Positions 29,257 to 54,254 of a stretch of DNA of 64,000 nucleotides are shown piece after piece. Below the pieces are notes generated by a model that was given only the letters and a program-made list of their open reading frames with translations, ran no database searches and had not been told where the DNA came from. Each line of letters begins with the position of its first letter. The stretch's first letter is position 1. The position numbers and the translations under genes are program-made. Origin of the DNA: Desulfosporosinus youngiae DSM 17734 (GTDB lineage: Bacteria > Bacillota > Desulfitobacteriia > Desulfitobacteriales > Desulfitobacteriaceae). The stretch spans positions 1,054,001 to 1,118,000 of the forward strand of contig NZ_CM001441.1 in the NCBI RefSeq assembly GCF_000244895.1, in the 5' to 3' direction.

Positions 29257-29333
29257 CGGGGCGTGGCTCAGCTTGGTAGAGCGCTACCTTGGGGTGGTAG
29301 AGGTCGCATGTTCAAATCATGTCGCTCCGACCA
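29257..29333 (+). tRNA. tRNA-Pro (anticodon GGG)
   Basis: This 77-nt cloverleaf has acceptor CGGGGCG/CGCTCCG, anticodon stem CTACC/GGTAG with loop TTGGGGT, T-loop TTCAAAT, discriminator A and encoded CCA (29331-29333). The integrase gene lies 116 bp downstream, so the 3' end is the probable attB/attL core of the prophage. Confidence 0.95.
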
Positions 29334-53782: not shown

Positions 53783-53812
53783 TTGACTGAAATTGACTAG
53801 TCGTGATATACT
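53783..53812 (+). promoter_or_regulatory. Sigma-A promoter upstream of the RNA region
   Basis: TTGACT (53783-53788) and TATACT (53807-53812) with an 18-bp spacer form a good promoter. The start would be near 53819, directly before the small hairpin CCTC-GTAA-GAGG and the terminator-like hairpin at 53827. Confidence 0.6.
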
Positions 53813-53826
53813 ACCTCGTAAGAGGC

Positions 53827-53858
53827 ACGCCCTGGATTAAGTCTAGGGCGTTTCTTTA
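53827..53858 (+). terminator. Terminator-like hairpin just after the promoter
   Basis: ACGCCCT (53827-53833) pairs with AGGGCGT (53845-53851) and is followed by TTCTTTAT. It may end the early operon or act as an attenuator for the following RNA. Confidence 0.65.
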
Positions 53859-53861
53859 TAT

Positions 53862-54068
53862 GCAAGGTGGCGGAATAGGTAGACGCTATAAATACGGGTT
53901 GAGTGATGGCAGGTGCATAAGCTTACGCTGTAAGACAAGTCGGGTAAATAGCTGGAAAGGTAGGACTGCCAATAAACTGTGTGAAAATCATAAAAACCCT
54001 ATATCCCTTCAAGGTGCCGACTAACACGCAGATAATCATATGTAAGGTGCAAATCCTTACCCTTGCTA
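53862..54068 (+). ncRNA. Structured RNA candidate with tRNA-Leu-like 5' and T-arm parts
   Basis: The 5' end GCAAGGTGGCGGAATAGGTA and the following GACGC match the acceptor/D-arm of tRNA-Leu (TGGCGGAATnGGnAGACGC). GCAAGG (53862-53867) pairs with CCTTGC (54061-54066), and GTAAGG (54042-54047) pairs with CCTTAC (54055-54060) around a T-loop-like TGCAAAT. The anticodon arm is replaced by about 155 nt. There TGGCAG (53907-53912) pairs with CTGCCA (53966-53971), ATAcGGGTT (53892-53900) with AACCCTAT, and AGTCGG (53938-53943) with CCGACT (54017-54022), a pseudoknot. It is neither an ordinary tRNA nor a tmRNA of normal size. No supported protein gene lies in 53765-54273. Confidence 0.4.
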
Positions 54069-54139
54069 TCAATCTGAAGACTAAGTAATGTTTATATACA
54101 ATAGTCATAGGAGAGGTAACTGCGCGCGCTTCTCCACGC

Positions 54140-54170
54140 AAAAGGCACTTCCTAAATGGGGGTGCCTTTT
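54140..54170 (+). terminator. Terminator after the structured RNA
   Basis: AAAAGGCAC (54140-54148) pairs with GTGCCTTTT (54162-54170). A further small stem GGAGA/TCTCC lies just before it (54110-54135). Confidence 0.8.
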
Positions 54171-54222
54171 CAATATGTCAAACTGACGAGTCTAGGCTCG
54201 AACTATATTTCCTCCTCTCGAT

Positions 54223-54254
54223 GAACGCCTCATAATTGGGGCGTTCAATTTTTT
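54223..54254 (+). terminator. Second terminator before the small gene at 54274
   Basis: GAACGCC (54223-54229) pairs with GGCGTTC (54240-54246), followed by AATTTTTT. Confidence 0.85.

Follow-up and report, generated by a model that had tools for sequence, protein, structure and literature searches.

In tRNA scaffolds engineered for RNA production, a foreign RNA is inserted at the site of the anticodon arm for stability. In tmRNA, a tRNA-like core carries a pseudoknotted insert in place of the anticodon arm. GOLLD and ROOL are phage RNAs of unknown function located near tRNA islands, and GOLLD linkers are reported to hold tRNAs in some cases (PMC12286853). The tRNA-Other of Bacillus cereus is a pseudo-tRNA outside translation that was proposed to be the tRNA-like part of a larger RNA; as presented in an excerpt of that study, it has a Trp anticodon, adjoins a chromosomal island and is not described as a phage family with exchanged inserts (PMC3399842). 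Here, we describe a phage RNA family in which a tRNA-Leu-derived frame carries highly variable inserts. The engineered scaffold is man-made, and this family would be its natural counterpart. A full-text literature search, with most subscription journals and most preprints lying outside its coverage, found no description of the family. To our knowledge, exchanged cargo on a tRNA-derived, tmRNA-like plan has no parallel.

The RNA studied here is encoded in a stretch of 64,000 nucleotides of the Desulfosporosinus youngiae DSM 17734 genome (NZ_CM001441.1, positions 1,054,001 to 1,118,000; hereafter the window), on the + strand at window positions 53861-54067, within a prophage, and is single-copy in its genome. 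It retains the acceptor, D arm and T arm of a tRNA-Leu, and a 155-nt pseudoknotted insert stands in place of the anticodon and variable arms (Table 1). The original prediction, made from the sequence alone, had placed the acceptor, both arms and the insert at these same coordinates; its statement that the D arm is close to that of tRNA-Leu and that no anticodon arm is present was borne out, the D-arm sequence being near-identical. The discriminator is A73. Folding without constraints yielded all three helices of the core, those of the acceptor and of the D and T arms, but its total energy was not better than that of shuffled sequences (z = 0.24), so that the support for the structure comes from comparison and not from energy. 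An ordinary tRNA-Pro(GGG) is located at 29257-29333 of the window.

Table 1. Features of the RNA locus (window coordinates).
Feature	Position	Strand	Evidence
Candidate promoter, TTGACT-18-TATACT	53783-53812	+	Consensus scan, 10/12 matches; TG ahead of second hexamer; chance level in shuffles
Leader terminator-like hairpin	53827-53857 (stem 53827-53851, T-rich tail after)	+	11 pairs, 6 G-C
Putative tRNA-like carrier RNA with insert	53861-54067	+	cmsearch, model R1 from 26 other members: 44.7 bits, E = 1.2e-10
Acceptor stem, 5' strand	53861-53867 (partner 54061-54067)	+	Acceptor covariation across family
U8-G9 and D arm, TGGCGGAATAGGTAGACGC	53868-53886	+	Identical in 370/414 members, largely pattern-selected
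Exchangeable insert, 155 nt, at anticodon/variable-arm site	53887-54041	+	Same type in 9 other distinct sequences
Helix f, 5' strand	53896-53900 (partner 53995-53999)	+	Weakest: 43.9% cells paired (MAFFT); by eye 8/10 sequences
Helix h, 5' strand	53903-53907 (partner 54035-54039)	+	74.5% cells paired; by eye 8/10 sequences, 35/40 cells paired
Helix c, 5' strand	53908-53912 (partner 53966-53970)	+	77.3% cells paired; by eye 10/10
Helix d, 5' strand	53922-53926 (partner 53960-53964)	+	62.9% cells paired; by eye 8/10, none assigned in L134 and L191
Helix a, 5' strand GTCGG	53939-53943 (partner CCGAC, 54017-54021)	+	100% cells paired; pseudoknot with b
Helix b, 5' strand CTGTGTG	53977-53983 (partner CACGCAG, 54025-54031)	+	Crosses a; 74.3% cells paired
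Hairpin g, CCT-TCA-AGG	54006-54014	+	67.9% cells paired; CCT/AGG, CTC/GAG, CCA/TGG
T arm: 6-bp stem, loop TGCAAAT with G55	54042-54060	+	TGCRAAT loop in 82/84 members chosen by D arm alone (at least 84 found)
Acceptor 3' strand (to 54067) and discriminator A54068	54061-54068	+	CCA not encoded
Downstream terminator-like hairpin	54140-54170	+	13-bp stem; stretch 54105-54176, z = -5.45
Second downstream terminator	54222-54253 (stem 54222-54247)	+	11 pairs, 6 G-C, T run after

ARAGORN, run at its default cut-off with introns of up to 3000 nt allowed, called no tRNA or tmRNA on this RNA, and none of the nine calls made at a 50% cut-off in the surrounding 800 nt had ends near 53861 and 54067. No Rfam 15 family reached its gathering score. 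At E values up to 10, four weak matches were obtained, all unrelated, and since no group I family was among them a group I intron in tRNA-Leu is not supported. The same holds for the group I-like phrases of the original prediction; TAACACGCAG is the 3' strand of insert helix b with its linker. RF00005, which describes functional tRNAs with an anticodon arm and cloverleaf, was not matched, and the TGCAAAT loop on a 6-bp stem departs from the TTCRANY loop and 5-bp stem of such tRNAs; together with the ARAGORN result, this does not support a working tRNA. In the same way, tmRNA is not supported, as RF00023 gave no match and ARAGORN no default call; the tmRNA matches at two family loci (L005 and L447) are neighbouring genes. 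GOLLD and ROOL, which are far larger and of other structure, had no Rfam match to the window RNA or to the member itself in 40 loci.

Comparative evidence for the tRNA-like core was obtained from an alignment of 26 members (A5). These were picked to have stems paired throughout, acceptors distinct from one another and an insert length of 46-58 nt, and the 100% of paired cells in A5 is therefore due to selection. Covariation was 0.709, compared with 0.153 +/- 0.020 in shuffled and 0.05-0.11 in slid versions. The covariance search suggested in the original prediction was performed with a model built from A5 (R1), which includes neither the window RNA nor its insert relatives: in the 64-kb window, the sole match was 53861-54067 (44.7 bits, E = 1.2e-10). 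On the whole genome, where stricter filters applied, the same member was split in two pieces (E = 3.6e-5 and 2.4e-4), and among 19 further loci a family member was found in 18, with 44-78 bits. In the set of 414 members described below, to which no acceptor filter was applied, all seven acceptor positions pair in 335, six in 59, five in 16 and fewer in 4. For each of the acceptor pairs 1-6, Watson-Crick pairing is seen in 75-91 of 95 distinct scaffolds (shuffled means 26-35), and several pair types occur per position, although this smaller set, unlike the 414, was required beforehand to have at least 5/7 acceptor and 5/6 T-stem pairs. Moreover, the D stem shows compensation in members selected by their T arm, TGGTGG..ACAC replacing TGGCGG..ACGC (GTG/CAC stems). 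The window RNA has the features by which the family is recognized, namely a 7-bp covarying acceptor, the D arm, a T arm with G55 and an insert at the anticodon site; in its own acceptor 6/7 positions are paired, with a T-T at the end. Conserved pairing in relatives and a match to a known group I or tmRNA family had both been named beforehand as points to check; the pairing is conserved and neither family was matched.

At least 414 distinct members, the window included, were parsed, with 404 distinct inserts. Beside the window, 335 members come from viral contigs, 67 from genomes and 11 from phage, plasmid or relatives' loci, among them SPP1; three (L080, L218 and L428) are parses spanning two genes and are still counted. 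As the members were mostly gathered by D-arm plus T-loop patterns, and also by insert-length scans, the constancy of those letters is partly selection, and sets chosen by one arm alone are a fairer test of arm conservation. When IMG/VR was scanned for the D arm only, at least 119 sites in at least 117 loci could be parsed; among the matches listed, 84 were members, 17, for the most part plain tRNA-Leu, had an ordinary T55 arm, and the other 18 include truncated or variant members. G55, which the parse does not require, was present in 82 of these 84 members (at least 84 found). With the T arm alone, at least 83 matches were found in new loci; among those listed, 65 have the full 6-bp stem, 45 of them with a paired acceptor upstream. 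Of the T55 sites treated as canonical (sets of 17 and 18), five are of unusual length (L079, L099, L120, L125 and L138). The L125 site, from 6159 onward, is a phage tRNA-Leu whose T arm is ordinary and whose CCA is encoded; its insert, of about 200 nt, resembles a real intron.

When 50,697 phage records were searched at high sensitivity, the D and T arms were matched in phages of several Gram-positive genera, and among the matches listed most sites were without an annotated feature. The loci fetched and confirmed by the model belong to phages of Enterococcus, Leuconostoc, Lactobacillus, Liquorilactobacillus, Weissella, Listeria, Brochothrix and Bacillus; the SPP1 and Lenus loci instead are part of the training set of the model. 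Four plasmid records also matched, of which the ones from Weissella and Paenibacillus larvae were retrieved and likewise confirmed. Scanning 84,980 named genomes yielded 73 loci; going by record titles, 66 are in Bacillota, one is in a 'Tenericutes' bin and 6 are in metagenome bins of other phyla, which are perhaps misbinned. Closer to the window, blastn against 59 related genomes gave short matches in three, two of which (G032 and G015) are other family members and one (G011) is not. In an order-level model search, 70 of 73 genomes had matches at E <= 0.001; G032 (60 bits) and G451 (44.2 bits) were clear members, and the remaining matches, among those listed, were of tRNA-Leu size (79-86 nt), except for two pieces of the window member itself (G000). 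A chromosome search with patterns for inserts of 36-66 and 50-80 nt, which cannot match the 155-nt insert of the window, found none in 29 genus genomes and 398 phylum genomes. Finally, Rfam on 40 loci placed no family on the member itself, except tRNAs nested in inserts (L348, L353 and L452), and identified tRNAs, two tmRNAs and one ROOL as neighbours. As far as sequence comparison goes, these searches establish a tRNA-like core conserved over many phages and prophages, with named hosts mostly in Bacillota. It seems that a widespread class of phage RNA has escaped annotation, a record of the classical laboratory phage SPP1 included.

The family resembles tRNA-Leu in its near-identical D-arm sequence, 7-bp acceptor and T54/A58 T loop, but differs by the missing anticodon arm, G55 for U55, the 6-bp T stem, a variable discriminator and an insert of 23-192 nt (three misparsed rows excluded). 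It resembles tmRNA in having a tRNA-like core with a pseudoknotted insert replacing the anticodon arm, but has a full D stem and cargo that is not conserved. With R1, tRNA-sized host-genome sites were the next-best matches, with up to 39 bits, and an annotated tRNA-Leu scored 24 bits, which indicates that tRNA-Leu is the closest relative of the core. This would suit a tRNA mimic of leucyl-tRNA synthetase (LeuRS) or another translation factor, either charged or blocking the enzyme, in which the insert merely replaces the anticodon arm; LeuRS does not need the anticodon. However, A73 is a main LeuRS determinant, and the discriminator of the family is A in no more than 217 of 414 members and T in 124, whereas at T55 sites it is A in 16 of 18; this makes leucine charging unlikely as a general property. 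Moreover, CCA is encoded in 5/414 members only, and a mimic leaves the maintained and swapped inserts unexplained. We therefore consider such mimicry improbable.

The insert type of the window is found in nine other distinct sequences, including Enterococcus phage EFDG1. In a MAFFT alignment of the ten, a model of seven helices with crossing pairs had a covariation of 0.318, compared with 0.156 +/- 0.020 after shuffling (0 of 500 shuffles reach it) and 0.07-0.14 in slid versions, the latter comparison being biased in favour of the model because the helices were picked by eye. Moreover, 72.7% of cells were paired (59.8% in shuffles), and both sides had changed in 23 of 35 pairs (15.9 in shuffles). 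As the by-eye strands omit some sequences for helices d, f and h, the count from the MAFFT alignment is the fairer one. Helix a occurs as GTCGG/CCGAC, GTCAG/CTGAC and CACGG/CCGTG, both sides have changed in 6 of 7 pairs of helix b, and helix h closes the insert against the T arm. Covarying and crossing helices common to the window insert and its nine relatives indicate a maintained structure, and the pseudoknotted insert of the original prediction was thereby confirmed.

Across the family, the inserts are far more diverse. The 404 distinct inserts form 280 clusters (blastn, E 1e-3), of which 226 are singletons, so that constraint on the insert is shown for the window type only. Folding was slightly better than in shuffles (mean z -0.78 for 279 representatives), and pseudoknot candidates were detected in 23 of 277 inserts (11.1 +/- 3.2 in shuffles). 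The shortest insert, of 23 nt (L027), is hard to call as a functional domain. The words enriched in inserts are those of ordinary T arms, and internal T arms occur in 16 of 278 cluster representatives (shuffle mean 0.2). Anticodon-like hairpins were found in 22 of 277 inserts (9.5 +/- 3.7 in shuffles), some of which are T arms, so that the two signals overlap. Whole tRNAs for Lys(TTT) or Ile(GAT) are nested in the inserts of L096, L344, L353 and L356, with a complete tRNA-Ile(GAT) gene in the last three. The data do not support long antisense pairing to genes nearby: in 323 loci (fetched stretches of up to about 15 kb, except the window), no insert had an antisense match of 14 nt or more to its own locus, and matches of at least 12 nt were in small excess (7.4%, compared with 3.9% in shuffles).

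We then compared inserts between loci with similar surroundings, defined as pairs in which each 500-nt flank has a stretch at least 80% identical and at least 150 identical bases. Of 31 such pairs, 9 had inserts with an identity of about 1.0 and 21 had inserts below the 95th percentile of random pairs (0.61); one pair lay slightly above this limit. The 21 pairs with unrelated inserts, which represent 11 independent locus groups, show exchange of the whole cassette. In the 60 nt on either side of the exchanged inserts, median identity was 0.90 and 0.93; both flanks reached 0.85 in 10 of 21 pairs, and at least one was below 85% in 11. A later identity measure, normalised to the shorter sequence, is looser, and the random baseline applies only to the measure used for the 31 pairs. 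Of 54 clusters with several members, 36 combine one insert type with acceptors that differ in at least 3 of their 7 positions. Finally, two or three separate members are present at 10 of 401 loci, and the insert type differs in 12 of 12 pairs, two apparent 'same cargo' pairs having been traced to the L080 and L428 parses. To judge from these alignments, the cargo is hypervariable among phages, keeps its structure in the group of the window and is swapped whole at the same locus. The original prediction was right about a tRNA-Leu-derived RNA with a pseudoknotted insert, but did not recognise it as one of a family whose inserts are exchangeable.

Cassette swaps can also result from the usual mosaicism of phage genomes, in which diversity need not be selected for. 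Another explanation is a degenerate or intron-containing tRNA-Leu, as considered in the original prediction, or a functionless insert that drifts at a hot spot of recombination. Long inserts do exist at T55 tRNA-Leu sites such as L125, and the 226 single clusters would be in accordance with drift. However, the altered T loop and 6-bp T stem are recurrent, and a decaying tRNA is not supported, as hundreds of sequences have the altered scaffold in common. A canonical anticodon arm directly follows the D arm in 4 of 414 members, by an insensitive test that found it in 6 of 18 controls. Moreover, the flank-matched pairs are not graded in insert identity, the cargo of the window type covaries and a group I match to the window RNA is absent at E values up to 10. 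On this evidence, we hold degeneration or drift to be unlikely.

In contrast to the 402 members without extra loop inserts, 14 carry one between G18 and G19 and 9 between G55 and C56, the only two points covered by this parse; the parses of L561 and L372 are doubtful. In all nine T-loop cases the sequence resumes with CAAAT, and five share a recurrent hairpin of the ACTATACGAGT..ACTCGT type; this module, ACTAT(T)ACGAGT..ACTCGT or a near variant, was seen in L041, L045, L065, L077 and L372. A D-loop module starting with GAC(A) was observed between G18 and G19 in L150, L190, L191, L199, L215 and others, several copies having GGTAAA, and L191 combines a D-loop insert with an insert of the window type. 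In the tRNA elbow, the G18/G19 and G55/C56 points touch. The loop inserts thus lie at elbow-contact points, which fits D and T loops that likely meet in the family as they do in tRNA.

The surroundings of the RNA were also analysed. In the window, phage genes for a RusA-like resolvase (51691), an HNH protein (52726), TerS (55999) and TerL (56366) lie around it. The terminator-like hairpins that the original prediction had placed on its 5' side and at its end are both present (Table 1). The promoter sequence is present as well, but one such match is within expectation, the mean in shuffles being 1.6. The order of a promoter-like site, leader terminator, RNA, two terminators and TerS/TerL might suggest a cis-acting leader or antitermination element of the late operon, the folding of which sets read-through into the terminase genes. 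Proteins upstream and downstream were sampled (100 each, of which two long ones per set were omitted before the scan), and the 98 upstream ones include matches to the phrog_248 transcriptional activator (13) and the phrog_36 regulator (9), in line with such a role. The gene upstream shares the strand of the RNA in 288 of 326 loci, and the gene downstream does so in 236 of 327. Of 363 members, 56 have a terminator in the first 100 nt downstream (3-31 in the other nine 100-nt bins). However, only 17 of these members have a leader terminator in the 100 nt ahead of the RNA, the SPP1 copy sits between genes 9 and 11, inside the head operon, and the EFDG1 and Gut-P1 copies are placed among tRNA genes, so that we give little credence to a leader function.

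HNH, terminase and scaffold matches appear among the 98 sampled downstream proteins, in ones and twos each, as might be expected of a packaging RNA that, like pRNA, acts with the terminase. In EFDG1, Gut-P1 and Lenus, however, no terminase is among the annotated genes within 1.5-3 kb of the member, and unrelated inserts are present at loci with like flanks; we regard this role, also raised in the original prediction, as very improbable. Other RNA genes adjoin some members. In EFDG1 (L005, KP339049), a tmRNA gene at 1080-1427, missing from the listed annotation, is next to the member, which begins at 1430; the tmRNA ends at 1427 or 1430 depending on which of two programs is used. A tmRNA gene at 1505-1857 is 19 nt away from the member in L447, and in L084 a ROOL RNA (667-1248) lies 14 nt upstream of it.

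With moderate confidence, we favour a phage-encoded carrier RNA, derived from tRNA-Leu, in which an exchangeable structured cargo replaces the anticodon and variable arms. The tRNA-like core would allow excision from the phage transcript by host RNase P and the tRNA 3' processing enzymes, and would give the phage RNA tRNA-like stability and defined ends. From what is known of tRNA biochemistry, G55, the 13-bp stack of acceptor and T stem and the missing anticodon may keep the RNA out of translation. The cargo could then be the working end, binding a molecule of the host or of a competitor. Our best guess is that its target is a factor in phage defence or RNA degradation, which it would inhibit or draw away as a decoy; this would explain an exchange resembling that of other arms-race modules and the presence of tRNAs or tRNA pieces as cargo, and draws on analogy and on the minority of inserts with nested or partial tRNAs. 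The wider proposal, that phages of Gram-positive bacteria use a conserved tRNA-like chassis to present exchanged RNA decoys or inhibitors of host defence factors, is put forward tentatively and may well prove wrong.

A constant tRNA frame with swapped structured cargo would constitute a natural tRNA scaffold. Should the cargos be directed against host factors, public phage genomes would hold hundreds of ready-made RNA inhibitors, and a defence-decoy chassis, if true, would be the RNA counterpart of anti-defence protein islands.
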